The position numbers were made by a program, and so were the translations under genes. Under the pieces are notes generated by a model. The model was given only the letters and a program-made list of their open reading frames with translations, did not search any database and was not told the origin of the DNA. DNA of 32,305 nt from a virus, in IMG/VR virus record IMGVR_UViG_3300032289_000661, positions 1 through 32,305 of that record; one strand, 5' to 3'. Of this stretch, positions 298 to 28,739 are shown piece by piece (within the stretch, counting starts at the first letter, position 1; each line of letters begins with the position of its first letter).

Positions 298-965
298 TGA
301 TTTCAGTTAAAGTAAATAATAAGAAATTTAAAAAACAAATGAATAACCTTATGGGTTATAGTGTAGGATTTTTGACTGGAGTAGAGCAAGGGCAGGGAGT
401 GTTTTTAAAGGGCTTTGGCCTTACAGTTCTAGAATCACTAAAACAATATATTGACTCTAATGCCAGAGTATCTTCAGAGTTATTGCACCATGTTTATGAA
501 TGGAATCAGACAGGGTCTCCAGAGGCAAGATTATTTGATATTAGATATGCCGTAAATGGGGTTGGACTATCCTTTGATTCAAAATTTAAACAATCAAGAA
601 GTATTAAAGATGGTTCCAGAGTTCCTTTCTACGATAAGGCCAGAATTATGGAAAACGGAATTCCAGTAACAATAGTTCCTAAAAATAGAGTTTTAGCCTT
701 TAATGTTGATGGAGAAGATGTTTTTACCTCTTCGCCAGTTACTGTGACGAATCCTGGAGGTAATGTACAGGGCGAGTACGAAAGAGTATTTGATAGCTTT
801 TTTAATCTTTACTTTAAACAATCATTTTTAGCATCAACTGGCATTTTATCATATTTAGAAAATCCAATAGATTTTAAAAAGAATTTTTCTAAAGGAAAGT
901 CTGGAGGACGTGCCCTTGGCATTTCTATTGGGAAACAGTGGATTGCAAAGGCTGGTATAATTTAA
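297..965 (+). CDS. Putative tail-completion / HK97 gp10-like protein
   Basis: The protein has 222 residues starting at ATG 297; a GTG at 294 is in frame directly before it, but the TGATG overlap favours the ATG. The sequence is basic, with a lysine-rich N terminus and a C-terminal KSGGR...IGKQWIAKAGII. No membrane segment or catalytic motif is visible. Position, size and basic character resemble the gp10-type neck/tail-completion proteins that sit before the tail terminator and major tail protein in siphophages; this is inference, not a recognised domain. Almost all arginines use AGA, in sharp contrast with the major tail protein downstream. The gene after it begins one base past its stop. 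Confidence 0.55.
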   Translation: MISVKVNNKKFKKQMNNLMGYSVGFLTGVEQGQGVFLKGFGLTVLESLKQYIDSNARVSSELLHHVYEWNQTGSPEARLFDIRYAVNGVGLSFDSKFKQSRSIKDGSRVPFYDKARIMENGIPVTIVPKNRVLAFNVDGEDVFTSSPVTVTNPGGNVQGEYERVFDSFFNLYFKQSFLASTGILSYLENPIDFKKNFSKGKSGGRALGISIGKQWIAKAGII

Positions 966-1618: not shown

Positions 1619-1627
1619 TGGTATACT
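1619..1627 (+). promoter_or_regulatory. Extended -10 promoter of the major tail protein
   Basis: TGG followed by TATACT forms an extended -10 element in the 71-base gap before the major tail gene. A second TATACT-like hexamer overlaps just downstream (1629-1634). No good -35 is visible, which is tolerated with an extended -10. Transcription would begin near 1634, giving a leader of about 46 bases that contains the ribosome site at 1665-1671. The same TGG-TATAMT string recurs at 2385 and 19280. Confidence 0.55.
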
Positions 1628-1664
1628 TATACTTGAGGAAACACGCCTATTATTCTAAAGAAAA

Positions 1665-1671
1665 AGAGGTG
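1665..1671 (+). promoter_or_regulatory. Strong Shine-Dalgarno site of the major tail gene
   Basis: AGAGGTG lies eight bases before ATG 1680, inside a purine-rich run. It is among the best ribosome sites in the window and fits the high output expected of a major structural protein. It also fixes the start codon of that gene. Confidence 0.7.
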
Positions 1672-1679
1672 AAATAATT

Positions 1680-2324
1680 ATGGCATATACACGTGGTTCA
1701 AGTTCTAACATTATTGTTGGAGCAGCAGCACTATGGACATATGAAGCAGGTACGCTAACAGATGCAGACCTACCAACGCTAACTGAAGATGTATCTTACA
1801 AGACAACCTTGTCAGCAGATGCAGATTTCCGTAACGTCGGATACACCATGAACGGTCTGGAGATTCAGTTCCAGCCTGATTTTGGTGAGGTACAGGTTGA
1901 TCAGGTTCTAGACGTAGCCAAGCTATACAAGCAGGGTATGCAGGTTAACCTGAATACTACATTTGCTGAATCTACACTAGAGAACTTGTTGTTCTCTCTT
2001 GCAGGTAAGGACTCAGATCTAGCAAACGTTCCAAACGGATCTTTCGGTGCTGGTAACCCAGCCCTAAATCTTTCAGCTGGTGACATTGGAGAATGTCCAG
2101 TTGAGCGTGGTCTAGTTGCAGTTGGTCCAGGTACAGGTGACTGTGCAGTAGGAAGCTCACTAGAGCGTATCTACGTTGCATACCGTGCACTTTCAATTGA
2201 GAGTGTTACAGTATCGGCAAAGCGCGATGAGGCAACAATGTTTGAGGTCTCATTCCGTCTGCTACCTAACGACGATGCATCATACGGTAAGATCGTAGAT
2301 CGTACCCTATCATTGGTATCGTAA
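1680..2324 (+). CDS. Major tail protein (tail tube)
   Basis: The protein has 214 residues. The N terminus MAYTRGSSSNIIVGAAALWTY and the C-terminal half rich in beta strands (SIESVTVSAKRDEATMFEVSFRLLPND) look like the tube-forming proteins of long-tailed actinobacteriophages. Three further signs support this: the gene sits directly before the tail chaperones and tape measure; it has its own promoter, a strong ribosome site and a terminator behind it; and its codon use differs from neighbouring tail genes. I see Arg encoded by CGT/CGC throughout with no AGA, while flanking genes use mostly AGA. This is the usual mark of a highly expressed phage structural gene. Hexamers would stack to form the tail tube. 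Confidence 0.8.
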   Translation: MAYTRGSSSNIIVGAAALWTYEAGTLTDADLPTLTEDVSYKTTLSADADFRNVGYTMNGLEIQFQPDFGEVQVDQVLDVAKLYKQGMQVNLNTTFAESTLENLLFSLAGKDSDLANVPNGSFGAGNPALNLSAGDIGECPVERGLVAVGPGTGDCAVGSSLERIYVAYRALSIESVTVSAKRDEATMFEVSFRLLPNDDASYGKIVDRTLSLVS

Positions 2325-2349
2325 TAACTAAATAACAACTTAATAGCAG

Positions 2350-2382
2350 AACCGTCCAGTTTAATAGCTGGGCGGTTTTGTA
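2350..2382 (+). terminator. Rho-independent terminator behind the major tail gene
   Basis: A 10-bp stem with one T-G pair (AACCGTCCAG at 2350-2359 with CTGGGCGGTT at 2368-2377) closes an 8-base loop and runs into TTGT-ATTT. It would separate the abundant major tail transcript from the chaperone and tape measure genes. The next promoter element begins only a few bases later. Confidence 0.8.
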
Positions 2383-2384
2383 TT

Positions 2385-2393
2385 TGGTATACT
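2385..2393 (+). promoter_or_regulatory. Extended -10 promoter, apparently leaderless, of the first tail chaperone
   Basis: TGG plus TATACT ends at 2393, seven bases before the A of ATG 2400, which is exactly the usual distance to the transcription start. No Shine-Dalgarno sequence lies between. The expected mRNA would therefore begin at or next to the start codon. The element abuts the terminator at 2350-2382, so this gene is re-initiated after termination. Confidence 0.6.
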
Positions 2394-2399
2394 TATAAG

Positions 2400-3113
2400 A
2401 TGGCCACTAAAATATATGATTCTGAAGTCATAAAGACTATAGACGGGGTAGAGATATATATAACCCCTCTAAAGATAAAATATCTAAGAATGTTCTTAGA
2501 AGAATTTGAAACTGTTAAATTAGCTAAAGACGATGACGGTGCTATAGAAAGATTGCTCTATTGCACAAGAATAGCTATGCAGCAGTATTATCCAGAAATA
2601 AAAACAATAGACGATGTAGGCGATAGTTTTGATCTTCAGACCATATATAAAATAATTAACATTGCAGCTGGTATTAAAATAAATCAAGAAAAAACTGAAG
2701 AAACTGTAAAGAAACAGGCAGAAGACAGTGGGGCTTCTTGGGATGACCTAGACTTAGCGAAGTTAGAGTCAGAGGTATTTTTGCTTGGCATTTGGAAAGA
2801 CTACGAGGACCTAGAGATGTCGCTTTCTATGTCAGAGTTAACTGCAACACTAACTGCAAAAAGAGAACTAGAATACTCAGATAAAAAGTTTCAGGCATCT
2901 ATTCAGGGAATAGATCTCGACAAGCATTCTGGCAAAAATGACTCTGATGCCTGGGAAAAGATGAAAGCCAGGGTATTTTCTGGTGGAGGAACAAGTAACC
3001 CCAATGACATTACAGCTCTTCAGGGTGTTAATGCTGCCAAGGCTGGATTTGGAATTGGTATGGGGCTAGGCTATGAAAAAATTGAGAAAAAACAAAAGCC
3101 CCCTGTGATATAA
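2400..3113 (+). CDS. Tail assembly chaperone, long form (G+T-like)
   Basis: The protein has 237 residues. Residues 1 to about 98 form a helical domain that is clearly paralogous to the protein encoded at 3144-3455: both start MAT, then VIK-x2-DG, PLKI-x2-LR-x-F, AM-x-Q, and a TIYKI/TVYKI segment at the same places. The remainder (from about residue 108, SWDDLDLAKLESEVFLLGIW, then SMSELTATLTAKRELEYSDKKF) resembles the T-type extension of tail chaperones, followed by a Gly/Asn-rich tail. Tail chaperones coat the tape measure protein during tube polymerisation. Most phages make a short and a long form by programmed frameshifting; here the long form is one uninterrupted frame. The start is ATG 2400, without a ribosome site. 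Confidence 0.75.
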   Translation: MATKIYDSEVIKTIDGVEIYITPLKIKYLRMFLEEFETVKLAKDDDGAIERLLYCTRIAMQQYYPEIKTIDDVGDSFDLQTIYKIINIAAGIKINQEKTEETVKKQAEDSGASWDDLDLAKLESEVFLLGIWKDYEDLEMSLSMSELTATLTAKRELEYSDKKFQASIQGIDLDKHSGKNDSDAWEKMKARVFSGGGTSNPNDITALQGVNAAKAGFGIGMGLGYEKIEKKQKPPVI

Positions 3114-3114
3114 T
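3106..3114 (+). promoter_or_regulatory. Extended -10 promoter of the short tail chaperone
   Basis: TGA plus TATAAT overlaps the stop codon of the long chaperone. Transcription would start near 3121, leaving a leader of about 23 bases that carries AGAGGA (3131-3136) eight bases... before ATG 3144. A separate promoter would let the short form be made in excess over the long form, replacing the ratio control normally set by frameshifting. That functional reading is inference. Confidence 0.5.
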
Positions 3115-3143
3115 TAGACAAGCATTATCGAGAGGAAAAAATA

Positions 3144-3455
3144 ATGGCAACTACAATAAGTGAAGAAAAAGTAATCAAGCTACTTGATGGAACAGATTTA
3201 ACAGTTCGACCACTAAAGATTTCGCTACTAAGAACTTTTATGAAAAAGTTTGTTGCGATTCAGGATGTGGCAGAAGACAACGACAAGTCCATGGACTTAC
3301 TACTGGATTGCGTGATGATTGCTATGGAGCAATTTAACCCCGATCTTGCAAAAGACAAGGCAAAGCTAGAAGAAATTCTTGACTTGCCTACAGTATATAA
3401 GATTGTTGAAGAGGCATCTGGAAACACAGCATTTCTTCCAACATCTATTAAATAG
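3144..3455 (+). CDS. Tail assembly chaperone, short form (G-like paralogue)
   Basis: The protein has 103 residues and matches the first ~98 residues of the preceding chaperone along its whole length (VIK-x2-DG, PLKI-x2-LR-x-F, LLLDCVMIAMEQ versus LLYCTRIAMQQ, TVYKIVEEASG versus TIYKIINIAAG). It lacks the T-type extension. I read both other frames past its stop: the -1 frame meets TAA at 3503 and the frame of the tape measure is closed by TAA at 3457, so no frameshift product of useful length can arise here. It should act with the long form to hold the tape measure protein. AGAGGA at 3131-3136 supports ATG 3144. Confidence 0.75.
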   Translation: MATTISEEKVIKLLDGTDLTVRPLKISLLRTFMKKFVAIQDVAEDNDKSMDLLLDCVMIAMEQFNPDLAKDKAKLEEILDLPTVYKIVEEASGNTAFLPTSIK

Positions 3456-3477: not shown

Positions 3478-4683
3478 ATGGCTGAAAACATACAGTCAAA
3501 CATAATTATAAATGTTGATACCAAAATTGGTATCGCAGAGATTAAGAATCTGCAGAGGCAGGTTGCTTCCCTTAATGCGCAGCTACTGAAAAGTGGAGCA
3601 GCTCAAGCACGTGCTGCAGAAAACGTTCAGCGAAATCTATTAAATAATATAAATGCTACTGGTCAGTTTGCTGCAAATGTAAGAAATATAACTAGTACTA
3701 CAGAAAATTTTACAAATAGGCTAGAAAAAAATAAGCTTGGCCTAGGCGAGTATTTCCGCTATGCGGGCGGAGCCAGTAAAACTTTTGGTAAACTTTTTAG
3801 AAATGAATTTGACACAATTGAAAAGGTTGCTCGTGAAAGAGTAAAGACTATTCAAACTCAGTTCACAAAGCTGGGCCGTAATGCAAATGGATCTCTTCAA
3901 GCCATAGCAGTGCGGCCTTTGGCTTTGGATATGAATAACCTGGCTACAAAAACTGAGATGGCCGCTCAAAAACAGCAGATCTTCAACCAGCTAGTAAAAC
4001 AGGGATCTACCAACTTACTAAATTTTGGTAAAAATACTCAGTGGGCTGGCCGCCAGCTCATGGTTGGATTCTCTATTCCTCTTGCATACATAGGAACTAT
4101 TGCGGCAAAAACTTTCATGGAAATGGAAGAGCAGGCAATTAGATTTAAGCGTGTATATGGAGACTCATTTACAGCATCTTCTGAGACAGACAAGATGGTC
4201 GTTCAGATTAAAGAGTTGGCAAACGAGTTTACAAAATATGGCGTTGCTGCAGAAAAAACAATGAAGATGGCAGCCGACGCTGCAGCTATGGGACAGATGG
4301 GGGCAGACCTATTAGCCCAGGTAGGCCAGGCAACAAGGCTCGCAGTTCTTGGTGGCGTAGAACAAGACCAGGCTCTACAAACAACAATATCTCTGACCAA
4401 CGCCTTCGGTCTTGCAGCAGAAGACCTGACTGGTAAAATAAACTTCCTTAACGCAGTTGAAAACCAAACTGTAACCTCTATTGAAGACTTAACAATTGCA
4501 GTTCCAAAAGCTGGTCCAGTTATTCAACAGCTTGGAGGAGACGTTGAAGACCTAACCTTCTTCCTTACTGCCATGCGAGAAGGTGGAATCAACGCCTCTG
4601 AAGGTGCAAACGCACTCAAGTCTGGTCTTGCATCTATGATTAATCCAGCGGAAAAAACTAGTTCTTGGCTAGCCTGGGTGTAA
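3478..4683 (+). CDS. Tape measure protein, N-terminal part (split gene)
   Basis: The 401 residues begin with a coiled-coil-prone region (IKNLQRQVASLNAQLLKSG, about residues 21-40) and continue into a typical TP901-type tape measure core: a hydrophobic stretch near residues 190-215, then KTMKMAADAAAMGQMGADL and the conserved ATRLAVLGG, TNAFGL and MREGGINASEGANALKSGL segments. The core stops abruptly at TAA 4681, where the protein continues without a gap in the -1 frame (LASLGVNIKQIVDSNAGDV). AGGGAAG at 3462-3468 supports ATG 3478. The gene is either disrupted, recoded, or affected by a sequence error. Tape measures set tail length and line the tube lumen. Confidence 0.85.
   Translation: MAENIQSNIIINVDTKIGIAEIKNLQRQVASLNAQLLKSGAAQARAAENVQRNLLNNINATGQFAANVRNITSTTENFTNRLEKNKLGLGEYFRYAGGASKTFGKLFRNEFDTIEKVARERVKTIQTQFTKLGRNANGSLQAIAVRPLALDMNNLATKTEMAAQKQQIFNQLVKQGSTNLLNFGKNTQWAGRQLMVGFSIPLAYIGTIAAKTFMEMEEQAIRFKRVYGDSFTASSETDKMVVQIKELANEFTKYGVAAEKTMKMAADAAAMGQMGADLLAQVGQATRLAVLGGVEQDQALQTTISLTNAFGLAAEDLTGKINFLNAVENQTVTSIEDLTIAVPKAGPVIQQLGGDVEDLTFFLTAMREGGINASEGANALKSGLASMINPAEKTSSWLAWV
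4662..4680 (+). other. Frame-change window in the tape measure gene
   Basis: The upstream frame ends at TAA 4681-4683. The downstream frame is closed by TAG 4659-4661. A continuous protein therefore requires a -1 shift (or one missing base) between 4662 and 4680. The A6 run at 4652-4657 lies before that TAG, so an error or slip there would hit the stop. No canonical X-XXY-YYZ heptamer is present in the window. The only runs are TT, CC and GGG. Confidence 0.7.
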
Positions 4684-7600
4684 ATATTAAACAAATTGTA
4701 GACTCTAATGCAGGAGATGTAACTGCCACAGTTATTGAGCTAGCCAACGCCCTGAATACATTAGACCCACTAAATAGGTCGAGAGCCATTGAGCAACTAT
4801 TTGGAAAGTTTCAGTTCTCAAGACTATCAACACTATTCCAGAACGTTGTAAAAGAGGGTACGCAGGCAGAGCGAGTCTTAAAGCTATCTTCGTCTACAGC
4901 AGAAGAGCTTGCAATACTATCTGAGCGAGAGCTAAAGCGTATTGAAGATTCACCAATGTACAAGTTTAAAAAAGCTGTTGAAGATATAAGGGTTTCCCTG
5001 GTTCCACTGGGAGAGGCATTCCTAAAGGCTGTAACCCCTATTGTTGAATTTGTAAAGGGCTTTTTAGACAAGTTTAATGAAATGAGCGATGGAGCTAAGC
5101 AGTTTACGGTGCTTATAACAACTGTTGTTGCTGGAATTGGTCCAATATTGCTAATGACATTTGGTCTAATAGCTAACGGTGCAGCAAACATTATAAAACT
5201 TTTTGCAGGGCTTCGAAATGTATTTTCTGGGTTGGGTGGACAGTCCAACACTCTTGGCTCTCAGACAGAATATTTGACCCAGCAACAGCTTGAAGCAGCC
5301 GCAGTCGCATCCTCACTAGATCAAAAACATGCAAAACTTATTCAAACTTTTACTTCAGAAACTGGTGCTGTAAATAATCTAGCTTCTGCTTATGGTAGGG
5401 CCATTATCGCCCAATCAAAGCTTTTAGGTGTTCCACTTGGGGCTGGAGGAAAAACTTTACCAAAGACTCCAAATGTTAAGAAGTATAAAACTGGAGTTGT
5501 TTCTGTGCCTGGTCCAAAGGGCGCTGGCGATGTTGTCCCAGCCATGCTTTCACCAGGGGAAGCAGTTATTCCAACAAAGATGGCTCAAAAATATGGTCCA
5601 CTAATCAACTCTATGATTAGCGGCAATGTTCCTGGTTATGAGAGCGGCAAGCCTGCAAAGCTCAAGTATAGTGTTGCAGACCCATCTATATCATTTCCTG
5701 CAAAATTCTTGTTAGAGGCTTCTCACATGTCTCCTGGAACAGATGTCTTAAGTTCTAATAAGGCCAAGCAGATCATGAATGCTGAAATTGATGATTTGAT
5801 TAAGCAAGGAATTATAAAAGAATCTATGGTAGATAGGTCAATAATTTCAAGAATATCTAAAGAAGTTAGACTAAATAGCCAAACAGCTGGAATGCTGACC
5901 AAAACATTTAATCAATTTTTTACAGATAAAAGAGCTGTAAAAGATGTCACTAGTATTCTTAACGAGCTTTCAAAAACAAAGGCACTTTCTGGGGGCAGCC
6001 TAATTCCAAACATGGATTACCTTGTTAAAAATGGTATGGTTGGAAAGGTCAGTGATTCAACAACTACAAAATACCTAGAGGACTTGGATAAAACCTTTAG
6101 ATCAATGATTTCAAACTCTAAGTCAAAAGCCCTTTCTGAAAGACAGTTGCAAGATATTTTTGTAAAGGCTCAAGACGAGGCAGAGAAAAAGATTGTAAAG
6201 TTTGACGAAAAGGAAAGTATTAGAAAGGCAAATGTTTTTGGCAGAGCCAAGACTAGCCCAGTAGTTCCAGGGTCTGAAAAGTCAGGAAGAACAAATCTTC
6301 CTAACCCATACATTAAATATCAAGATACTCAGAAACAGCTAAGATCTCCAGAGACTAGAAAAAGGTTAATGAGCTTTGCAAAGATAGCCGATACCTGGGC
6401 TACAAAGAATTCTATGAAAACTAAAGCATCTCAGGCTGACAGAGACGCAATTAAGAATCTGTTTAAAACCTTGCCAGAAGATGAAGCCAAAAAGCTTATG
6501 TTGTCACTATCTGCTAGTGATGGAAGTAAAGAAGATGTTTCAAAAATTATTAAAGATGCTAATAATAAAACTCTAAAAACTCCAGAGCTTAAAAAAGAAG
6601 TTGTTAAGCAAGCAGCAAAAGCTACCAAGGGTGCTCAAACGTTTAATATGTCTGAAATTCTTGGCTCCACGGCCAAGAGTGTTCCAACTGGAAAAGCTGG
6701 ATTGATAGCAAGACTTTTTGGCGTACGAGCACGTTTTGGTGGTATAGCAAAGTCAACAACTCAATCAAAACTGCTATCTGAGTTGCTCAAAAAATCTAGA
6801 GTTTCTACTAGAATGCCTAGCGACATGCTTACTGAAATGCTGGGCAAGGGTGACACCAAGTACAAGACTGCCTTTGATACTGGATATGGTGCAGATTTTA
6901 CAAAGAATAGATCTTCAGCTGGTAGGGGATCAGAAAATAAGTATGGGAAGCAGCAAAGAAGCAAGCTTGAGAGCGATGTATTTGGAATTCCATATGGAGC
7001 CAACTCTTTAGATAGGCCAACATATGGTGCCGTAGCAACCGTTAGTCCAGCTGCTAAAATTCTTGCCAAGTTGTTCGGAAGACTAACTGGTAAACAGTTC
7101 CTTGATGTTACTAATCCCCTAAATAGTAATCTAGATCTGTACGGAGATACATCTCTAATTGGTAAACGCTCTATTGGCCGTAGATCAAAATTTTATGGTA
7201 ATGACATATTAAATCAGTACCTTAAGTTTCCACAAGGATTTAGTGGTAAATACGCACCACAATTACAAAATCTTTACGGTGCAAAAGACTTTGGTAGAGA
7301 TTCTGGTAATCTAAAGTCAACACTTTCTCACCAATTTGGAACAAGCTACAAGTCTGGTCCACCAGACAAGTGGGGAAATCAGGCATATATATCAAATCCA
7401 GGAATCCCTTATATAGAGACTTATACCCCAGGTGGATTTGATCTAAGAGAAATTTCAAAAATTGTTACAAAAAACCCAGAGGCTATTCCGCTTATCAGAG
7501 CAGCCCTAAAAGCACAGGGATTAAAGATTCCAGTGCGTGGCCAGCGTTCTGGAATTATGGCCAAGATATTTGGATTTGAGGACGGGGTAGTTAGCGTTCC

Positions 7601-10600
7601 TGGTCCAAAGGGTGCTGGCGATGTAATTCCAGCGATGCTGTCTCCAGGAGAGGCGGTAATCCCTGCTGAGATGACAAAGAAGTATAGTCCATTAATTAGT
7701 TCTATGATTTCTGGAAACGTTCCAGGATACTTTAAGGGTAGGGCTGGAGCAGCTGGAAACTCTAGTGGGGGTGGCTTCAGTGACCGTGCTGCAGAAATTA
7801 TTGGAAAAGGTCTTGGACAGGTTCTTGGAAGGTCTAAGATTCTAGGCACTTCTATTGGAAATGCTATTGGAAATTCTGCAACAGTTGGAAAAGCTCTTTC
7901 ATGGCTTAATGGTGGAACCGCAACAGTTGTTAGTAAAAATGGTAGAGAGTTTGATAACGGTGTAGAAACAAAAACCGACAAGAACGGTAGACAATACTTT
8001 GTAGGCGCCAAGGGCGAAGGAAAAATTTCTAAAGAAGAGGCAGAGGCTAGATACAAAAATAACGCTGCTGCCGCAGGGGCAGAGCCAAAGCAAAAAACTT
8101 CAGGAGCAGTGGCTGGAAAACTTGCAGCAGTAGGTGGCGTTGCAGGAATGGGCGCAATGATGTACGGAATGTCAGGCGCTCCAGGAGCCGATGTAGCTGG
8201 CCAGGTAGCCATGCCACTTATGATGCTTTCTGCGGTATTGCCTATGATTGCAAGCAAGACTGGAATGGTTGTGGCTGGCTTGGCAGCCGTTGCTGGGGCT
8301 TTTGCCTACCTAATAATTCAGGCTAACGAAGCAACAAAAGCTGGTATAAAGATGGGCAAGTCAATGTCTATGACCAATAAAAAGCTTGACGAGTTTGCTT
8401 CCTTAAACGGCGTAGTTACTTCTAGCCAAGAGGCTATAAGAGTAAGAGACGACCAGCTAACTGGAGAATCTGCAAAAAAGAGATACTATGGACAAAACTT
8501 TTTAGAGTCTGAGGCTGGAAAGTCTTTACTTACAGATGCAGAGTCAATGACCAAGAGTGGTCAAAGCAATCAAGAAATTGCTAAAAACTTTTCTAACCAA
8601 CTTTCTTATGCTGTTTTGCAAGGCGCTGTTACTCAAGAGCAAGCAGCTTCAATTGCCGCAGCTCTAGGAGAAAAGCTTCAAGATTATTCTATTTCTGCAA
8701 ATATAGTTGGAAACCTTACAGCCCTTTACGGCAGAAATGGTGAAAATCTTTTAACTGACCCATTAAAGATTTCTTTAGAAATTCAAAAGCAGGCTAGTGA
8801 TCAACAGCTATCAGCTTTTGAAAATGCTCAGTCTGTAGTTTCTGATAATGCCACCAATGACCTACAGACAGTAACTACATCTTTGCTTGCAGCAGGAGCA
8901 ACTATTGCTGGCGTTGGCCTGGCGCTTGCTCCAGCTACCTTTGGTCTAAGTGCTGCAGTAGGAACTATTGCTGGAGGAGTCGTCGCAGCAGCTGGCGGTA
9001 TAGCTGCTGGTCTAAATGCATGGACTGAGTTTACAGAGGAAGCTGAAAATAACGAGGCACGAGGTCTGGCGGTTTCTTTGGGTGTTGAGCAGATTGCACA
9101 AAATCAAGGATTGCTAGACTCTCTAAATGACAGATACAATACAGAAATAAAAGAGCTTGAGCTTAAAAAAGAAATTGCAAAAACTGATAAAGAAAAGTTA
9201 GAAATAGAAGATCAGATTGCTCAAAAAATTAGAGATAGAAATTCTGCAATCGCTGGTCAAAAGCAGGCAAACGAACAAGTTTTTAGTGGGCTAATTGAGC
9301 AAGCAGAAGCAATGGGCTCATCTTTTAATACTTCTATAGGAACGGCAATTGATGAAAGATTTAAAGATGCAACGGGCTCTCTAAAGCTTTCGGCAACCAT
9401 GGCAAAAGATGCTCTTGCAGCAATGCCAACCACTGGAACAGACGGAAAGTTTAATACATTTAAGGCAACAGTACAGTTTGGCTTAGCATCTGGAGAGTTT
9501 TCTCCAATGGCTGCACTAAACCTAGCAAATGCAGCAGCGGAAGATAAAACAATTGAGACAAACTTTAATCTGATTACATCTGCCCAAGGAACCGCAGAGG
9601 CCAACCAGCTTCTTCAGCTAATAGGAAAGGCTGGGGTATCTTCTAAAAACTATGGAGTAATTCTAGACTATATAAATAAAAATCCACAGACTTTTAAGGA
9701 AGACCAGGAAGCCCTCGCCCAAATTGCAAATATGCAGGCAGAGTATGGCATCACAGTAGACCTAAATGTTAATGGAGCAAAGAAAATTCAAGATGTTAGT
9801 GCCTTCTTGCAGGCAACTGGAGGACTTAAGGGTAAGCCAGTAACAAGAGAAATTGTAACAAACTATATAGCAAATAATCCAGGAATGGATGCTGTACAAA
9901 AAGCAAATCTACAAGAAATGCTTGCAAACTGGGATGTTCTTACGGGTGGAGACAATAAGGTTAACTACCAGGTAATGGTCGACTATGTAATTGGAAAAGC
10001 TAGTGACGCAGCAATCTGGGCATACTATATATCAAAAAATCCTGCTTTGGCAAATGCTACCATTTCAGTACAGACCTCATTGATGCCAGCAGCTAGGGCA
10101 CAATTCTTTGCCGATGGCCAAGAGAATACAAACACCAACACAAACACAAACCCAGATCCAGATGAAGAAGATGGCGGAAGTAAAAAGGCAGATGTCTTAG
10201 ACGAACTATTAAAGAAGCTTCAGAATGTTAGAAGAGCTTCTGTGGATGCCAAGGGTGGAATAACAGAGCTAATGTCTCTACTAAAAACTGGTAAAAACTT
10301 TACTGGCTTTAGTGGTATTGAGCAACAGCTTAGCCTAAAGGGATACAGCGAAGAGTTTATAAGATTTATGGCAGATGCCGATAAGGCAGATCAAAAACGA
10401 TTTATGAGCATCGACAAGGGTGTTGTAAAGCTAAAAGATTCTGGAAAGGCCTTACAAAACTTATTTGCTGCAGTAACCTTGGGAAACTTTGAAAGAGGCG
10501 TTAGAGAGTCTATTGGTGCTATAAATAGAGAACTTAGTGCTAGAAAAACAATTCTAAGCCTTACAACAATGTCTTATAAGGAAGCCGCCGAAGCAGCCAG

Positions 10601-11969
10601 AGACTCAGGCCTAGCTGAAGCCATTGCTGCAATAAAATCAAATACTGCAATAAAGGATAAAAACAAGGCAATAAGAGAAGCCATTAGTTTGTATAAGCAA
10701 GAAAAGGCAGCAGTAGAGTCAGCAAGGACGATGCAAGAGAAGTTTGATGACACCTACAATGCACAGATGGCCCTGATTAATGCTAAGGAAGCAACCATAC
10801 AGGTCGAGTTTGATATTGCGACAGATCCTTTTAATGATGCGGTATCGTCTGCGCAGGCAGACATTGACAAGAAGGTAAATCAGCCTGGCGGACTGGATGA
10901 CCTTCAGGCAGGTCTACAGCAAATTACTTGGCAAGAAGATGCCATAAATAAAACCTATGATGAAAGACTAGAAGCCCTAGATAAAGTTGAAAAAGCAAAT
11001 GAAAGAATAGCCAACTCGCAAAAGGCTCAGCTTGGACTTGCGGAAGCTCTTTCTCGTGGTGACATAGCTGCAGCAGCGAAAGCAGCACAAGAATTTAGAA
11101 GCTTAGAGGCTAAAGAGTCTTCTCAAACACAGAGAGACCTGATTGAGAAATCTAGAGAAACAGAGCTCGGAGCTCTAAGCGCTACGGTAAACGGAGTTAA
11201 GAAAACCAGAAAACAAATTGAAGATGACATTCTAAAAATTGAAAAAGAAATTTTCTTAATAGAAGAATCTAGGCTTGAGCCAGCCAAAGAGTCAATACGA
11301 CTAGCAACGGTTGCAAGAGACATAAAGCTAGATGCGCTAGATGATGAAAAAAACAAGTGGGATCAGTTAAAGATCAGTGTTGATTTGGCGGAAGCTTCTG
11401 CCTCTGCATATTTGACAACTCTGACTGCTGCCCAGGCTTTAGCTAACGCCGCAATCGCAGAGGGGACTGCTCCAAAGCCTCCACCGCCACCAGGTGAAAA
11501 GCCGCCCACACCTCCACCACCACCACCAAAACCAAAGCCAGTAGTATATACTGTTAAGCCTGGAGACACTCTTTCTGGAATTGCTGGTAAAAATAACACG
11601 ACTGTAGCAAAACTACTGACTGCTAACCCAAAGATAACAAATCCTAATCTTATATACTCTGGATCAAAAATTACCATTCCAACAAAGAAGGCTTCTGGAG
11701 GTCTAATTGACTTCTCATCATTTGGCACAGACACAGTCCCAGCAATGCTAACGCCAGGAGAGTTTGTGGTCAAGAAGTATGCCGTAGACTCTTTCGGGGT
11801 AGATAACCTAAAGGCCATAAATAATGGAACATACCAGGGCAGTTCGGTGTATAATTATGAGTTGAACGTAAATGTTAAGTCAGATGCAAATGCAGATGAA
11901 ATTGCTAGAAGCGTAATGACTCAAATTAAACAAATTGATTCACAGAGAATAAGAGGAAACAGGCTATAA
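4665..11969 (+). CDS. Tape measure protein, main C-terminal part, with LysM and repeated motifs
   Basis: The 2434 codons begin at an unsupported TTG (4665) and continue the tape measure core (GTQAERVLKLSSSTAEEL). Features by residue: hydrophobic helix about 147-175; first GVVSVPGPKGAGDVVPAMLS copy from 277; Lys/Ser-rich region with an RPTYGAV...YGD...YIE segment (784-918) resembling phage ART-like domains; second GVVSVPGPKGAGD copy from 974; hydrophobic blocks about 1146-1222 and 1405-1452; Asn-Thr repeat about 1820; long coiled coils about 1500-1560 and 1880-2240; proline-rich linker 2270-2292; LysM 2293-2341 (YTVKPGDTLSGIA...ITIP); then FGTDTVPAMLTPGEFVV, a common tape measure ending. Joined to the upstream part it would be about 2830 residues, implying a tail near 0.4 micrometre at 0.15 nm per residue. 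Confidence 0.85.
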   Translation: MASLGVNIKQIVDSNAGDVTATVIELANALNTLDPLNRSRAIEQLFGKFQFSRLSTLFQNVVKEGTQAERVLKLSSSTAEELAILSERELKRIEDSPMYKFKKAVEDIRVSLVPLGEAFLKAVTPIVEFVKGFLDKFNEMSDGAKQFTVLITTVVAGIGPILLMTFGLIANGAANIIKLFAGLRNVFSGLGGQSNTLGSQTEYLTQQQLEAAAVASSLDQKHAKLIQTFTSETGAVNNLASAYGRAIIAQSKLLGVPLGAGGKTLPKTPNVKKYKTGVVSVPGPKGAGDVVPAMLSPGEAVIPTKMAQKYGPLINSMISGNVPGYESGKPAKLKYSVADPSISFPAKFLLEASHMSPGTDVLSSNKAKQIMNAEIDDLIKQGIIKESMVDRSIISRISKEVRLNSQTAGMLTKTFNQFFTDKRAVKDVTSILNELSKTKALSGGSLIPNMDYLVKNGMVGKVSDSTTTKYLEDLDKTFRSMISNSKSKALSERQLQDIFVKAQDEAEKKIVKFDEKESIRKANVFGRAKTSPVVPGSEKSGRTNLPNPYIKYQDTQKQLRSPETRKRLMSFAKIADTWATKNSMKTKASQADRDAIKNLFKTLPEDEAKKLMLSLSASDGSKEDVSKIIKDANNKTLKTPELKKEVVKQAAKATKGAQTFNMSEILGSTAKSVPTGKAGLIARLFGVRARFGGIAKSTTQSKLLSELLKKSRVSTRMPSDMLTEMLGKGDTKYKTAFDTGYGADFTKNRSSAGRGSENKYGKQQRSKLESDVFGIPYGANSLDRPTYGAVATVSPAAKILAKLFGRLTGKQFLDVTNPLNSNLDLYGDTSLIGKRSIGRRSKFYGNDILNQYLKFPQGFSGKYAPQLQNLYGAKDFGRDSGNLKSTLSHQFGTSYKSGPPDKWGNQAYISNPGIPYIETYTPGGFDLREISKIVTKNPEAIPLIRAALKAQGLKIPVRGQRSGIMAKIFGFEDGVVSVPGPKGAGDVIPAMLSPGEAVIPAEMTKKYSPLISSMISGNVPGYFKGRAGAAGNSSGGGFSDRAAEIIGKGLGQVLGRSKILGTSIGNAIGNSATVGKALSWLNGGTATVVSKNGREFDNGVETKTDKNGRQYFVGAKGEGKISKEEAEARYKNNAAAAGAEPKQKTSGAVAGKLAAVGGVAGMGAMMYGMSGAPGADVAGQVAMPLMMLSAVLPMIASKTGMVVAGLAAVAGAFAYLIIQANEATKAGIKMGKSMSMTNKKLDEFASLNGVVTSSQEAIRVRDDQLTGESAKKRYYGQNFLESEAGKSLLTDAESMTKSGQSNQEIAKNFSNQLSYAVLQGAVTQEQAASIAAALGEKLQDYSISANIVGNLTALYGRNGENLLTDPLKISLEIQKQASDQQLSAFENAQSVVSDNATNDLQTVTTSLLAAGATIAGVGLALAPATFGLSAAVGTIAGGVVAAAGGIAAGLNAWTEFTEEAENNEARGLAVSLGVEQIAQNQGLLDSLNDRYNTEIKELELKKEIAKTDKEKLEIEDQIAQKIRDRNSAIAGQKQANEQVFSGLIEQAEAMGSSFNTSIGTAIDERFKDATGSLKLSATMAKDALAAMPTTGTDGKFNTFKATVQFGLASGEFSPMAALNLANAAAEDKTIETNFNLITSAQGTAEANQLLQLIGKAGVSSKNYGVILDYINKNPQTFKEDQEALAQIANMQAEYGITVDLNVNGAKKIQDVSAFLQATGGLKGKPVTREIVTNYIANNPGMDAVQKANLQEMLANWDVLTGGDNKVNYQVMVDYVIGKASDAAIWAYYISKNPALANATISVQTSLMPAARAQFFADGQENTNTNTNTNPDPDEEDGGSKKADVLDELLKKLQNVRRASVDAKGGITELMSLLKTGKNFTGFSGIEQQLSLKGYSEEFIRFMADADKADQKRFMSIDKGVVKLKDSGKALQNLFAAVTLGNFERGVRESIGAINRELSARKTILSLTTMSYKEAAEAARDSGLAEAIAAIKSNTAIKDKNKAIREAISLYKQEKAAVESARTMQEKFDDTYNAQMALINAKEATIQVEFDIATDPFNDAVSSAQADIDKKVNQPGGLDDLQAGLQQITWQEDAINKTYDERLEALDKVEKANERIANSQKAQLGLAEALSRGDIAAAAKAAQEFRSLEAKESSQTQRDLIEKSRETELGALSATVNGVKKTRKQIEDDILKIEKEIFLIEESRLEPAKESIRLATVARDIKLDALDDEKNKWDQLKISVDLAEASASAYLTTLTAAQALANAAIAEGTAPKPPPPPGEKPPTPPPPPPKPKPVVYTVKPGDTLSGIAGKNNTTVAKLLTANPKITNPNLIYSGSKITIPTKKASGGLIDFSSFGTDTVPAMLTPGEFVVKKYAVDSFGVDNLKAINNGTYQGSSVYNYELNVNVKSDANADEIARSVMTQIKQIDSQRIRGNRL
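5493..5648 (+). repeat. Internal repeat copy 1 of the tape measure gene
   Basis: This stretch encodes VPGPKGAGDVVPAMLSPGEA...NSMISGNVPGY and is repeated at 7584-7740. The best conserved piece, 26 bases at 5508-5533, matches 7599-7624 with one mismatch. A diverged third copy of the VPAMLxPGE core lies near 11736. The copies flank a region of about 1.9 kb unlike the rest of the protein. Confidence 0.8.
7584..7740 (+). repeat. Internal repeat copy 2 of the tape measure gene
   Basis: This is the second copy of the VPGPKGAGD-VIPAMLSPGEAVIP...SSMISGNVPGY module, aligned along about 52 residues with copy 1 at 5493-5648. At DNA level, identity is highest in 7599-7624. It is followed by glycine-rich sequence and hydrophobic blocks. 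Confidence 0.8.
10124..10152 (+). repeat. Short AACAC-type tandem repeat encoding (Asn-Thr)n
   Basis: A run of AAC/ACA-type units encodes NTNTNTN and leads into PDPDEEDGG. It looks like a flexible, slippage-made linker between the globular middle of the tape measure and its long C-terminal coiled coils. Its frame is maintained. Confidence 0.6.
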
Positions 11970-12643
11970 TGGCAACTTCAAGATATCTATATGGTGTAGA
12001 TTCCAATACTGGAAGAAAAAGATACCATAGGCCACAGGCTATTCTTTTTTCAGAAAACTCTGGCTATATTTCAAACGGAAACATACTTCCAATTGGATAT
12101 GAAATAGGCGTAGATGAAGAAACAGTCACAGACGATTCGCCACTAAATAGCTTCTTAATACTTTCAGATGATAATAGAAAAGCGCTAGATTTTGGATCAA
12201 TAAGAATTGAAAAACGTGAAAGAATGATTAATGGCAGAATGCGCTCTTATCATATTGCAGACAAGGCTACGCTATCAGTTTCGTGGGACATGTTGCCATC
12301 TAGGTCATTTTCTCAGTTACCAGCATTCGATGCGGTTTCTGGTAGATCAGATAATGTGAGCTCTGGCAAGCCTAACTCACAGGACACCTCATACACAACT
12401 GACGGTGGAGCTGGCGGGGCAGAGATTCTTGAGTGGTATAACCAGCATAAGGGCTCGTTCTGGGTATTTTTAGCTTATGATAATTATAAAAATTTTGGAG
12501 ACTCTGAGTCTGCGTACAATAAACTAGGCATATACAATGATGTTTTAGAAATGTTTATTACGGACTTTAACTACTCAGTTGTTAAGCGTGGCGGAAGCAA
12601 TCACGACCTCTGGAACATATCCATGACTCTGGAAGAGGTTTAA
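11969..12643 (+). CDS. Minor tail protein (distal-tail type, 224 aa)
   Basis: The gene starts at ATG 11969, overlapping the tape measure stop (TAATG). The protein is strand-rich and soluble. Near residues 72-106 it has IEKRERMINGRMRSYHIADKATLSVSWDMLP-type sequence (a basic hairpin followed by a strand). The middle is Gly/Ser-rich, and a C-terminal VLEMFITDFNYSVVKRGG...DLWNISMTLEEV reads like the beta-sandwich edge of a distal-tail or tail-adaptor protein. The first gene after the tape measure in siphophages usually encodes the distal tail protein, which fits the size and fold type. No motif proves it. Translation is coupled on both sides. Confidence 0.6.
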   Translation: MATSRYLYGVDSNTGRKRYHRPQAILFSENSGYISNGNILPIGYEIGVDEETVTDDSPLNSFLILSDDNRKALDFGSIRIEKRERMINGRMRSYHIADKATLSVSWDMLPSRSFSQLPAFDAVSGRSDNVSSGKPNSQDTSYTTDGGAGGAEILEWYNQHKGSFWVFLAYDNYKNFGDSESAYNKLGIYNDVLEMFITDFNYSVVKRGGSNHDLWNISMTLEEV

Positions 12644-15600
12644 GTGTTTGTAGATGATCAACTAAAAGAACATCTAGAGACGGCATCAACAATAAGATCC
12701 CAGTCTCTAATTTTAGCAGAGTGGAACTTAAATTATTTAGACAATGTAGAAGCATTGGGAAATTATAGATATAGGCCAACTGCAGACTCTAATGAAATAT
12801 ACAGCACCATCCCTAGCAGCTTTGACATAAACGATTCTGGTAATTTTTATACTGGTGCAACAGACTCAGACATAACAATTGATGGTGGCCTAAAAGATAA
12901 TGAAGAGCCTCTAGCCTTTCAGTCAATTAGAGAAAAAGAAAAATCTTTATATTCTTTAGAAGACTGTCTCAAAAAGTTTAGACCAAGATCTGGAATAAAC
13001 AAGCTTAGATTTTTTGGCAACAACTTTAGTCATCACACCAACATTGAAATGGCGAACAGGCCAAGATATTACATGTCAGACAAAAATGATACTTTTAAAT
13101 ATTGGACATCGTATAGAACTGAAGACGGCATTGAAAGAGGGGTCGCAAGCCATCAGGTAAATGGTCAATTCTATATAGACGACGCAGCCCCATATGTTGT
13201 ATATAAAAAAGAAGTTCCTGCAAATAGACTAATAATTAAAATGCAGACAAATGTTGGAAGCGTTGACCTTGGTCCATTTTCAGACTCTTCTGGGTCATTC
13301 CCCGATCCATTTTTTGGAGATTTAAATAAGACCACCCCAGTAAAATGGAAGGTGCAAACACTAAAAGATGGCAACTGGGTAGATGCAAAATCATTTAATC
13401 AAATGTCTACTAGACCAGACGGAACTCCAGTTATATCTCAGGATGGGTATGTAGAGCTATCTTACGGTCTGGTTATTCCAGAAAAGTATCAGAATAACTT
13501 TAAAGAAATTGCAGTACTCTCAGGAGTTAATAGTTTGCCGACAGCATCTGTAGACGGACATGCCTATCTTGTAAAAGAAAATGATTTAAGTATTGGAACA
13601 TATTATGTTTGGAATTCGGACTCAGACTTATTTGAAAACTTTATTCCAACATACGACTGGCACTTGCATAGCGAAGATGTTACTACCCTGACAAACTTTG
13701 TTACTAAAATGTCTTCTCCATTATCATACATAGATCCTGGAACTGGTTATCTTAGATACAGAGAACTAGAGTACATCTCAGGAATAAGGCTTGTAGTAGA
13801 AACTATGAATAAGTTTGACTCAACCTTTGACCTAATTGAAATGTCGCCTAGGCTAGTAGCTGATATATCAGATATCACAAAAGATTATGTTGTGACAAAG
13901 TCAGCATCGGATCTAGGAATTAGTGGAATGCCAGTCGGTCAACTTCTTGCCTCAACTGGTTCACTATCGCTATTTGACCCAGAGCAAGTGTTTAATTCCA
14001 ACAATCCATTAAGTATCATAAAAGATTATGTCAATAGAACAATGCAAATAAAATTTTACGAGTCTGTCTTAGATGTAAACGGGTATGATTATTTTATTCC
14101 TATTAAAACTCTATACTCTGACACGTTACCTAAAATTAATAATGCAGATAGATTGGTAAACGTTGAATTAAGAGATATGTTTTTTCATTTTGAGTCTCTA
14201 ACCGCCCCACAAATATTTATTCAAAATGCTTCAGTCAGCTACGCTGTATCTTTGCTTTTAGACAATATTGGATTTTCAAATTATGTATTTAAAAGGGCAC
14301 CAGAAGAAAAAGATCCAATAATTCCAAGTTTCTTTATAGGCCCAGACAAAACTGTAGCAGAGGTTCTTAGCGACATAGCTTTATCGACCCAAACCGCTAT
14401 GTTTTTTGATGAGTATAACAACTTTGTTATGATGACAAAGGGATACATTATGCCATCAGAATCTGACAGGGCTACTGATATAACGCTATACGGAAACGAT
14501 ATTATTGTTTCAACCACTGGTGGCAGGTTCCTGTATGCTGGCTCTGTAAACCATGTAGACCAGCTGCCCTCATCAAGGCAGCCTGGTGGATTTTTAGTTC
14601 TTTCAGAAAACAAAATTTATGTATGGTCTTTCTCTTTTAATCAAAATAACTGGGCTGTGGCAGGCGATTTTGATAGAATTATTAACTCTTCAAATATAGT
14701 CGAGGTATCGTCAGATGAAAATAAGGTCTATAATGATGGAAAAATTACATATACAACCAGGTACATTCAAAAAACTTATGGGTCAATAGGCCAAGCCCTT
14801 ATAGTAGACAGGGAAAAAGATTGGACCTATAAGCCAGTACTGCTTTGGGAAGTGGCGGGAGAACAAAACACAAAGTCAATTAATGACGAGATTTCAAATC
14901 AGTCGTCTTATGTTTTAAGCGCTATTCCACTCAACTCTGACCTGTCTGCACAAATACCTTATGTGGCCAACAATAAGGTTCAAAATAATATTATGGATCT
15001 TGGCGAAGGCATTTATTGGCTGAGTAGGTATAACGGCTACTTCTACTCAAATGGAGAAATAATAAAGTTTGATGCAGTACAGTATAACGTTCCTTCTGTG
15101 ATTGGGTCTGAGTCAACTGGCCTGGGCTTTATCGACAACAATGTTTGGATATCAAGCGTAGAAGAATATCAAAACTATTTTTCCAAAATATCTTTTAACG
15201 GAAAGATATACCCTACAGGTTTGGTCAGAATTTATACAGAGCCAAACTATAAAATTATTAATGGAATAACAGTACCAGAAAGTATTGCAAAGCATGGCAG
15301 AGGTCAGTTTGGAACAAAGGTTGTAGAGCATAGAGCTGGGCTAGACCCCTACTGGGCAGATCCTAAAAATCTAAGAGGTTGTTCAATGAAGTCTTCTCAT
15401 CTTTTTAGTGATGAGGAGATTCCATCTACAACCACAGGTGCTGCAGGAGTCAACAATATTCTTGCTGCTAAAACTACATGTAGTGGATTAATTAAAAACT
15501 TTATGAGTAGCTCTTATGTTAACGAGACAGATTTGGCAAGACTATACTCTACTCAATCTGGAACAATTCAGTCTTCCGCACTAGTAATGAATGGTCCAGC

Positions 15601-17122
15601 TTTTGCAACAACAGAAAGGCCGCTACCAAAAGATTTTATATCTTATGTATATAAGCCACTAACTGAAAAGTTTAGACACTTTGGCACAAGAATGAGAATT
15701 ATAGGCAGAATAGAAAATAATGAGAATCGTGGTCAGACCCCTATTGGAAGTACCTCGTACTACATTGTAAATGGATCATCTCCAGATCAAAATATTAGTG
15801 TTAATGCAGCTTCTGGGGGACTTGCAGTTATGCTTAATCCAGAAACAAATAACGGCTATTATTTTGAGATTGCTGCTTTAACAGAAAATGATCCAAGCAG
15901 CTATACTGAATCAGAAAATATTTATAATGTTATTTTTTACAAGATAAAAAAATCTGCCGCAACTGGAACAACACCTAGTTCTGAAGCAATACCAGTAAGA
16001 CTTTGGGCTGGTCTAACTCAAATAGTTGTAGACAGTGGAAAGTTTACTGGCCAGTCAAGAATAACTTCAGAAGATGTCACTACGGTATACGATTTGGCAG
16101 TAGAATATGAAACAATAGCTGGAACCAGAAGATTTTTTCTATACATAAACAACAGCCTTATAGCTACTGTAGACGACAATGACCCTTTGCCAATATATAA
16201 TAATATGGCACTATTTGTTCGTGGCTCAGCAAGATGCATGTTTGAAAATATTTATGCTATTACAAACAATTACAGTAAAAGCACTGGCTATGTTTTAGAT
16301 ACTCCAGTCAACGCAGTTTTTGAAGATAGTGAAATAAATGTAGATGAGTCTTTTAGAAAGTATGCTATAAGTGGAATGATTCAATCTACTTACCTGTCTG
16401 GAATAAAGCCGTCAGAGCCACCAGACTACAAAATGTATTTTGAAGAATTTGGCACAATTATGCGTGAAGCAGCTTACTTCAATATAAGGTATGACAAGGC
16501 ATATCCAGCACTATATGCAAAGCTTTCGCCAACCTATAATAATTTAAAGGGATATGTTTCTTCTGGTTTTATTGCTGGTCCGTATGGCGCAGAATTTTTA
16601 ATTTTTAATGCAACAGATACTGCACTAAGCCTAGACGATTCTAGTGGAAACTACTTAAGAATTCAAGGTGTAACTTTTACCCAGGCATCCCCACACGAAC
16701 TAACTGTTGACGAGTACTTTTCCAAAAATAGCGACTTATCAAATCCAGAATTAGTCGGTAACTCAATAATTAAATCACCACTAATAGTAGAAAAAGAATA
16801 TCTAGATATTAAGAGTAGTAGATCTACTTATGGCAAAAAAGATTTTTCTTTAGATCTTCCATATGTTCAAAGCCATGATGACGCTCAGAGTTTAATGGGA
16901 TGGATAATATCAAAGGTGATGAAGCCAAGAAAAGCCGTTGGACTAAAGGTATTTTCAATGCCAACCATTCAACTAGGAGATATTGTAAAAATAGACTATA
17001 CTGCAAAAACAGACTTTGGTCAAATATCCAATTCCGACACCAGGTTTGTAGTTTATAACATACAATTTTCAAGATCCTCCGATGGGCCAGACATGACACT
17101 ATATCTTAGTGAGGTGTTTTGA
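12644..17122 (+). CDS. Large minor tail protein / tail-tip hub with carbohydrate-binding-like inserts
   Basis: The 1492-residue protein starts at GTG 12644 directly after the preceding stop. The N-terminal half contains two copies of a small strand motif of the form VNxLPx...G-x-YLVxENx...YVWxxxxxxF, at about residues 289-334 and 627-676; such units decorate phage tail fibres. The stretch FFIGPDKTVAEVLSDIALS (about residues 565-583) resembles the hub/gp27-like part of tail-associated proteins. Residues about 1030-1210 (GYYFEIAAL..., YDLAVEYETIAGTRRFFLYIN, NNMALFVRGSARCMFENIYAI) look like a concanavalin/LamG-type jelly roll. The C terminus (MPTIQLGDIVKIDYTAK...) is hub-like again. A role in host-surface binding at the tail tip is inferred. 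No lysozyme or peptidase motif was seen. Confidence 0.65.
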   Translation: MFVDDQLKEHLETASTIRSQSLILAEWNLNYLDNVEALGNYRYRPTADSNEIYSTIPSSFDINDSGNFYTGATDSDITIDGGLKDNEEPLAFQSIREKEKSLYSLEDCLKKFRPRSGINKLRFFGNNFSHHTNIEMANRPRYYMSDKNDTFKYWTSYRTEDGIERGVASHQVNGQFYIDDAAPYVVYKKEVPANRLIIKMQTNVGSVDLGPFSDSSGSFPDPFFGDLNKTTPVKWKVQTLKDGNWVDAKSFNQMSTRPDGTPVISQDGYVELSYGLVIPEKYQNNFKEIAVLSGVNSLPTASVDGHAYLVKENDLSIGTYYVWNSDSDLFENFIPTYDWHLHSEDVTTLTNFVTKMSSPLSYIDPGTGYLRYRELEYISGIRLVVETMNKFDSTFDLIEMSPRLVADISDITKDYVVTKSASDLGISGMPVGQLLASTGSLSLFDPEQVFNSNNPLSIIKDYVNRTMQIKFYESVLDVNGYDYFIPIKTLYSDTLPKINNADRLVNVELRDMFFHFESLTAPQIFIQNASVSYAVSLLLDNIGFSNYVFKRAPEEKDPIIPSFFIGPDKTVAEVLSDIALSTQTAMFFDEYNNFVMMTKGYIMPSESDRATDITLYGNDIIVSTTGGRFLYAGSVNHVDQLPSSRQPGGFLVLSENKIYVWSFSFNQNNWAVAGDFDRIINSSNIVEVSSDENKVYNDGKITYTTRYIQKTYGSIGQALIVDREKDWTYKPVLLWEVAGEQNTKSINDEISNQSSYVLSAIPLNSDLSAQIPYVANNKVQNNIMDLGEGIYWLSRYNGYFYSNGEIIKFDAVQYNVPSVIGSESTGLGFIDNNVWISSVEEYQNYFSKISFNGKIYPTGLVRIYTEPNYKIINGITVPESIAKHGRGQFGTKVVEHRAGLDPYWADPKNLRGCSMKSSHLFSDEEIPSTTTGAAGVNNILAAKTTCSGLIKNFMSSSYVNETDLARLYSTQSGTIQSSALVMNGPAFATTERPLPKDFISYVYKPLTEKFRHFGTRMRIIGRIENNENRGQTPIGSTSYYIVNGSSPDQNISVNAASGGLAVMLNPETNNGYYFEIAALTENDPSSYTESENIYNVIFYKIKKSAATGTTPSSEAIPVRLWAGLTQIVVDSGKFTGQSRITSEDVTTVYDLAVEYETIAGTRRFFLYINNSLIATVDDNDPLPIYNNMALFVRGSARCMFENIYAITNNYSKSTGYVLDTPVNAVFEDSEINVDESFRKYAISGMIQSTYLSGIKPSEPPDYKMYFEEFGTIMREAAYFNIRYDKAYPALYAKLSPTYNNLKGYVSSGFIAGPYGAEFLIFNATDTALSLDDSSGNYLRIQGVTFTQASPHELTVDEYFSKNSDLSNPELVGNSIIKSPLIVEKEYLDIKSSRSTYGKKDFSLDLPYVQSHDDAQSLMGWIISKVMKPRKAVGLKVFSMPTIQLGDIVKIDYTAKTDFGQISNSDTRFVVYNIQFSRSSDGPDMTLYLSEVF

Positions 17123-19279: not shown

Positions 19280-19288
19280 TGGTATAAT
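19280..19288 (+). promoter_or_regulatory. Extended -10 promoter, apparently leaderless, of the gene at 19294
   Basis: TGG plus TATAAT starts directly after the stop of the preceding gene and ends six bases before the A of ATG 19294. The expected transcription start falls on or next to that A, and there is no ribosome site. The string is nearly the same as those at 1619-1627 and 2385-2393. Confidence 0.6.
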
Positions 19289-28733: not shown

Positions 28734-28739
28734 AATACC

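Follow-up and report, generated by a model that had tools for sequence, protein, structure and literature searches.

An extended -10 element placed directly on a start codon, at positions 2385-2402 of a viral DNA fragment, raises the question of how this gene is started and what such a start is for. The window analyzed here, a viral record 32,305 bases long, is itself a fragment. In a first-pass annotation, -10 hexamers were said to end seven, six, and seven bases before the A of ATG 2400, ATG 19294, and ATG 28740, respectively, with no Shine-Dalgarno (SD) site before any of them, and TGG-TATAMT was listed at 1619, 2385, and 19280, together with TGA-TATAAT at 3106. All of these coordinates were correct, all four elements are present, and the absence of an SD was confirmed for all three starts. 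The features around ATG 2400 are as follows.

1619-1627, plus strand: extended -10 TGGTATACT, putative promoter of the major tail protein (MTP) gene, whose mRNA is led, not leaderless
1635-1642, plus strand: GAGGAAAC, predicted 5′ end of the MTP mRNA, in 89 of 89 unique relatives
1666-1672, plus strand: SD sequence GAGGTGA of the MTP gene, in 87 of 89 relatives
1680-2324, plus strand: MTP gene, 214 aa (phrog_2175, E 7e-29), 45-46% identical to the "major tail protein" of Streptomyces phages
2346-2381, plus strand: predicted intrinsic terminator after the MTP gene (-27.3 kcal/mol, z -6.1), abutting the next promoter
2385-2393, plus strand: extended -10 TGG-TATACT (hexamer 2388-2393) without a -35 box, predicted to drive the long tail assembly chaperone (TAC) gene as a leaderless transcript
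2400, plus strand: predicted transcription start on the A of ATG, from the 6-nt gap, the spacing in the MTP leader, and the lack of an SD
2400-3113, plus strand: long TAC gene (TAC-L), 237 aa, phrog_10504 (N domain) plus phrog_10474 (C domain)
3106-3114, plus strand: extended -10 TGA-TATAAT, putative promoter of the short TAC gene (TAC-S), with TATAAT in 114 of 120 relatives
3130-3136, plus strand: SD sequence GAGAGGA of TAC-S, with an SD in 116 of 120 relatives
3144-3455, plus strand: TAC-S, 103 aa, phrog_10504 alone, a second copy of the N domain

The genes at 2400-3113 and 3144-3455 were assigned as TAC-L and TAC-S because of these phrog matches, their annotated homologs, and their fold matches. 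Homologs found by tblastn in Streptomyces phages are annotated "tail assembly chaperone," and a BFVD search of structure models returned a match of the same name (E 3.6e-4). The top PDB fold match of TAC-S was the HK97 tail assembly chaperone 2OB9, at a weak E of 0.38, and with TAC-L the search of PDB folds gave nothing informative. Like the annotated TACs of Streptomyces phages, the two genes lie between MTP and the tape measure gene. Their identification as TACs draws on this gene order, on homology to annotated TACs, and on fold matches of modest strength. TAC-L is an in-frame fusion of an N domain (approximately residues 1-97) and a C domain (approximately residues 126-237). TAC-S aligned with the N part of TAC-L with an hhalign probability of 99.9 (E 5.5e-35), and in a tree the N domains separated into a LONG clade (99/90) and a SHORT clade (98/87); by these comparisons, the two N domains are paralogs. 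Nearly all relatives have the -10 of TAC-S at 24-39 nt upstream of its start codon. In the window, the TAC-S promoter at 3106-3114 and the TAC-L stop codon share sequence (TGATATAATTAG), which packs promoter and coding end together.

At 2385-2393, TGGTATACT is followed by TATAAG and then by ATG 2400. When 106 distinct regions upstream of ATG 2400 orthologs were compared, TAnnnT occurred 5-8 nt before the ATG in 104, the gap between the -10 and the ATG was exactly 6 nt in 94, and an SD was present in none. One of the two apparent misses, L241, was set aside as a mis-called start, with TGGTATAC at the called start. The MTP leader supplied a separate measure of spacing. There, TGnTATAMT was followed 6-7 nt later by GAGGAAAC in 66 of 89 unique relatives, and of these 66 measurable cases, 44 had the element starting 6 nt and 22 had it starting 7 nt past the -10, an independent fix on the -10 to +1 distance of 6-7 nt. 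The conserved GAGGAAAC element fits the very start of the MTP mRNA. Because it begins 6-7 nt after its -10, the +1 of the gene at 2400 is predicted to fall on the A of its ATG; this placement of the mRNA 5′ end follows from spacing. The leaderless start claimed for ATG 2400 was thus supported, with a -10 in 104 of 106 regions and an SD in none, and leaderless initiation of this gene is, as a prediction, well supported. The MTP mRNA itself (1633-1672) combines GAGGAAAC at its 5′ end with a second SD, GAGGTGA, near the ATG, and Streptomyces phages carry a GAGGAAGTGC version of the element. For an mRNA expressed at a high level, GAGGAAAC may serve as a 5′-terminal stabilizer or as a standby site for ribosomes.

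The region upstream of the long TAC gene is constrained in a second way. A terminator-like hairpin was found there in 104 of 106 relatives, compared with 3.7 in shuffles. The hairpin sequences differ among relatives and are not conserved as sequence: hairpin parts were less than 70% identical in 72 regions, and the -10 signal was kept in 70 of those 72. The end of the terminator stem lies mostly 5-11 bp from the -10. In the window, the T-tract of the terminator continues straight into TGG-TATACT (2375-2393), and a polymerase released at the 2346-2381 terminator would be positioned on the next promoter. This fusion of terminator and promoter may re-use polymerases released at the terminator.

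Frameshifting in TAC genes is a textbook example of recoding that is maintained by the demand for two products in fixed proportion. Lambda requires its short and long chaperones in a ratio of about 30:1, and -1 frameshifting is general among long-tailed phages (PMC5009743). Among the relatives of the window, 129 unique loci had a fused TAC-L together with TAC-S, and 15 unique loci had a single N domain, followed by a C domain in frame -1, and lacked a short copy; two further cases lie on contigs that end before a short copy could be visible. No mixed architecture was found among loci with both sides visible. A slippery GGGAAAC or CCCAAAY was present at 15 of 16 frameshift loci. This class includes Streptomyces phages BillNye and MulchMansion, the latter having no slippery heptamer of the simple XXXYYYZ type. 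In the fused class, slippery sites were seen at only 6 of the 129 ends of the short gene and at 2 of the 129 junctions in the long gene, and the C domain of TAC-L is in the same single frame as the N domain, not in -1. Judging from these counts, the fused class has lost its slippery sites. The frameshift loci were SD-led in 16 of 16 cases and leaderless in none of the 16, with a promoter 22-32 nt upstream; in the fused class, TAC-L is leaderless and TAC-S is SD-led. Since frameshifting is general in long-tailed phages and present in the outgroup, it is probably the ancestral state. In the N-domain tree rooted with the Streptomyces phage outgroup, LONG branches before the split between frameshift and SHORT domains, a topology that leaves the direction of change unsettled, and the frameshift clade could not be placed in the C-domain tree, which was too short. 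The association of fused architecture with a leaderless start probably reflects a single evolutionary event, and the 129 genomes are consequently not 129 independent tests.

The promoters of the two genes also differ in predicted strength. The -10 was TATAAT in 25% of TAC-L promoters vs. 95% of TAC-S promoters; the remaining 75% for TAC-L departed from it (TATACT, TACAAT, TAGAAT), and only 5% departed from TATAAT for TAC-S. When both promoters of the same phage were compared, that of TAC-S was closer to consensus in 73 cases, equal in 27, and worse in 1.

The best overall explanation, to which we give a probability of roughly 0.72, is that a leaderless TAC-L and a duplicated N domain (TAC-S) replace the frameshift, the role in dosage being the conjectural part. 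Positions 2385-2402 would then be a host-type, -35-less, TGn extended -10 promoter from which transcription begins on the A of ATG 2400, so that the resulting mRNA for TAC-L would be leaderless, and the terminator at 2346-2381 would isolate TAC-L from the abundant MTP transcript. The N domain of the chaperone would have been duplicated, with one copy fused in frame to the C domain in TAC-L and the other standing alone in TAC-S, behind a stronger -10 and a good SD site. TAC-L and TAC-S would correspond to the long and short forms made elsewhere from one gene by a -1 frameshift, and the leaderless start and weaker -10 would probably hold TAC-L scarce relative to TAC-S, much as a low-efficiency frameshift does. 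The promoter, the terminator, the positional constraint, the absence of an SD, the duplication, and the loss of slippery sites are all well supported at the level of sequence comparison. That two separately initiated genes replaced the frameshift as the means of setting the long:short ratio is the most likely reading: initiation would now set this ratio, because TAC-L has the weaker -10, lacks an SD, and is insulated by a terminator from the MTP transcript. For the stricter version, in which a large clade of actinophages gave up -1 frameshifting and sets the ratio by initiation alone, pitting a weak, leaderless, -35-less promoter on the MTP terminator against an SD-led consensus promoter, we see even odds. 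The first-pass annotation had overlooked the identity of the gene as TAC-L, its tie to the duplicated N domain and the loss of the -1 frameshift, and the missing -35 box.

Leaderless mRNAs are robustly translated in some actinobacteria, so that "leaderless" need not mean "low." The leaderless start of TAC-L could therefore be real and yet serve a purpose other than dosage, such as initiation late in infection (by 70S ribosomes or with altered initiation factors), or simply follow host habit. Leaderless genes are common in Actinobacteria (PMC3160421), and leaderless starts in these phages occur genome-wide and in unrelated genes. One such gene lies in the window.

19280-19288, plus strand: extended -10 TGG-TATAAT (TGGTATAAT), followed by GGGCT and ATG 19294; predicted promoter of a second conserved gene with a leaderless or nearly leaderless start
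19294-19740, plus strand: predicted leaderless gene, 148 aa, function unknown, between the tail and replication genes

Orthologs of ATG 19294 had TGnTAYAMT at a gap of 5-9 nt and no SD in 28 of 33 relatives and an SD in the other 5, which supports the leaderless start originally suggested for it. A third recurrent leaderless gene, of about 125 aa (phrog_9394, function unknown), was found in relatives L276-L281 at roughly 8.6 kb upstream of TAC-L, with TGGTATACTNNTGGTTATG (G001:C1:31808-31826, minus strand). In 1.95 Mb from 128 loci, with identical contexts counted once, the motif occurred 406 times in the forward and 42 times in the reverse direction. The following ATGs peaked sharply at gaps of 6 nt (62) and 7 nt (52), against roughly 8 at other gaps; frames of at least 60 aa followed 156 of 161 ATGs at gaps 6-7, compared with 28-60% at most other gaps and 1 of 15 at gap 8. 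A search over the full length of 20 long relatives found TGNTAYAMTN{5,8}ATG 7-22 times per record vs. 0-3 times for the reversed pattern. From the motif counts and the peak in ATG gap, leaderless-type starts are, as far as sequence can tell, a trait of the whole genome in this phage group. Set against a purpose unrelated to dosage are the paired TAC-S of the same operon, which is almost always SD-led and has a systematically stronger -10, and the fact that the switch to a leaderless start accompanies the loss of the frameshift. We consider this alternative possible but doubtful, and keep replacement of the frameshift by TAC-L and TAC-S as the preferred reading.

We assumed that host RNA polymerase acts at the 2385 promoter, although other phage factors are possible. 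No -35 signal was found at this promoter, the best match scoring 2.12 of 6 vs. 2.47 in shuffles, and a -35 was likewise absent at the promoters of MTP, TAC-L, TAC-S, and the 19294 gene, where the best matches scored 2.1-2.9 of 6 against about 2.5 in shuffles. TTGACA was found before the genes at 20302 (helicase region), SSB, and polymerase, with scores of 5.7, 5.2, and 4.1, respectively. From this difference in -35 scores, the late genes seem to be served by extended -10 promoters that lack a -35, and the replication genes by full promoters. Such a division, along with the presence of WhiB genes in 17 of 20 records, would suit a motif read by a phage-made factor or a late-gene-specific, modified RNA polymerase rather than by the plain host sigma-A holoenzyme. 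Yet TGn-TATAAT is an ordinary extended -10, independent of a -35; no sigma factor gene was found in the 20 records; and TTGAC stands at the right spacing before some leaderless sites elsewhere in these genomes, which makes the leaderless and -35-less conditions separate traits. We therefore regard a dedicated phage factor as unlikely. By analogy with T4 AsiA, which masks sigma region 4 (PMC6755090), it is tempting to speculate that a phage protein of similar action lies behind the missing -35 boxes.

A less probable alternative is that the 2385 promoter serves mainly the downstream genes (TAC-S, tape measure) and that TAC-L is translated from MTP read-through. The genes are all co-directional, and MTP and TAC-L are only about 75 nt apart. 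Nevertheless, a terminator stands between them in nearly every relative, TAC-L has no SD in any of them, TAC-S has its own promoter, and read-through gives no reason for the conserved, exact 6-nt gap; we consider it very improbable. The first-pass annotation had also proposed a comparison of the motif with a shuffled genome, and this came out in its favor: TGNTATAMTN{5,7}ATG occurred three times in the window, all on the plus strand (minus strand 0, reversed pattern 0), whereas 200 dinucleotide shuffles gave a mean of 0.08 and a maximum of 1. Two further leaderless-looking sites bear on the role of chance.

953-961, plus strand: TGG-TATAAT (TGGTATAAT), 5 nt before ATG 967, overlapping the end of the coding sequence of the gene at 294
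28728-28733, plus strand: TATAAT, followed by AATACC (6 nt) and ATG 28740; possible single leaderless start

The 953 element had been overlooked. It was rejected as a conserved leaderless site, as TAYAMT was present there in only 3 of 90 relatives, the closest ones. ATG 28740 was also rejected: the one closely related locus (L193) has an SD-like leader instead, and the leaderless start advanced for it is not conserved. Chance matches of AT-rich DNA to a loose consensus, to which these two of four leaderless-looking sites and a sigma-70 scan no better than shuffles would lend themselves, have next to no plausibility in view of the shuffled-window and strand counts and the conservation over 106 loci, and are refuted for ATG 2400 and ATG 19294. 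In generic sigma-70 promoter and terminator scans, promoter-like sites were no more numerous than in shuffles; these scans were uninformative, and only anchored, comparative tests were informative.

The proposal that the phage sets up several short transcription units in its structural region, some of them leaderless, held in part. MTP has its own predicted promoter and terminator, and TAC-L and TAC-S each have their own promoter. Leaderless starts were supported at 2400 and 19294 but, as a conserved feature, not at 28740, and the elements at 1619 and 3106 are promoters of SD-led genes (ATG 1680 and ATG 3144). The further phrase "instead of one long late operon" was an overstatement, since conserved promoters of this kind were found only at MTP, TAC-L, TAC-S, and 19294, with the genes from about 3478 to 19279 covered by the leaderless check. 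Two further copies of TGG-TATAMT, also overlooked, lie inside the gene at 19750 (20124 and 20226). Within the same coding sequence, 20206-20234 is a near-perfect TTGACA-N17-TATACT with a TG extension, kept in 25 of 32 relatives, which probably starts the replication gene unit at 20302.

These genes share features with several known systems. As in lambda-type G/GT TACs (Levin, 1993; Xu, 2004; PMC5009743), the order is MTP, TAC, tape measure, and a short, N-only form accompanies a long N+C form with homologous domains; the nearest relatives (L047-L051, L199-L214, and Streptomyces phage BillNye) use a -1 frameshift in the lambda G/GT fashion. Unlike in that system, the genes described here have no slippery site, the long form is a single frame with its own leaderless promoter, and the short form is a separate, SD-led paralog. 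The T4-like TACs (Vladimirov, Gautam, and Davidson, 2022, Virology 566:9) are, in the passages of citing papers that describe them, likewise a pair without classical frameshifting, or with frameshifting that is doubted (PMC10885494, PMC12846349); they belong to T4-like myophages, and those passages mention neither a leaderless promoter nor duplication of the N domain with fusion. Leaderless genes of Actinobacteria also have a -10 right before the ATG and no SD, their TANNNT lying some 12 bp ahead of the start (Zheng, 2011, PMC3160421; Cortes, 2013, PMC3898074); the present case differs in being a phage virion-assembly gene with a TGn extension, no -35, an abutting terminator, and an SD-led paralog. 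In Cluster O mycobacteriophages such as Corndog, phage promoters are also predicted whose +1 coincides with the first base of the start codon, one of them driving a leftward gene within the structural operon and the others genes near the left end; the TACs of that cluster, unlike those here, use a programmed frameshift (PMC4351075). Stanwilliamsviridae (BE-type BillNye, MulchMansion) share the gene order and the MTP-TAC promoter (DNA polymerase 57%, MTP 45% identical) but have a single TAC with the C domain in the -1 frame and an SD-led start. A TAC combined with leaderless starts in the relevant sense was not found in the open-access papers searched. The gene at 2400 would be a conserved case of leaderless initiation in a virion-assembly gene, and a clade in which the frameshift has been replaced would allow a test of whether selection acts on the ratio of the two products or on their linkage. 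The promoters described here would also represent a late promoter type that can be read from sequence in phages of uncultured actinobacteria.

The MTP, TAC, and DNA polymerase genes of the fragment are kin to those of Stanwilliamsviridae phages of Streptomyces, the polymerase being 57% identical to that of BillNye; hundreds of closer kin than the Streptomyces phages are present in IMG/VR. WhiB genes are confined to Actinobacteria and their phages (PMC6802176), and their presence in 17 of the 20 long relatives makes an actinobacterium very probably the host. The GC content along the window, 34-45%, is compatible with low-GC lineages as hosts, probably freshwater ones. A scan of genome contigs for MTP found no host-linked copy, and no tRNAs usable for host matching were found, so that the host assignment comes only from WhiB and the kinship with Streptomyces phages. 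An Rfam search gave no match. The tape measure gene occupies two frames (3478-4683 and 4665-11969), and the near-identical record L004 has a 4-base indel relative to the window at about 4660-4683; given this indel, the split is either a difference between variants or an assembly error. Two genes, at 28692-29537 and 29846-30364, have few relatives; the former has a weak match to a family labeled "ferrochelatase" and one clear relative in IMG/VR.
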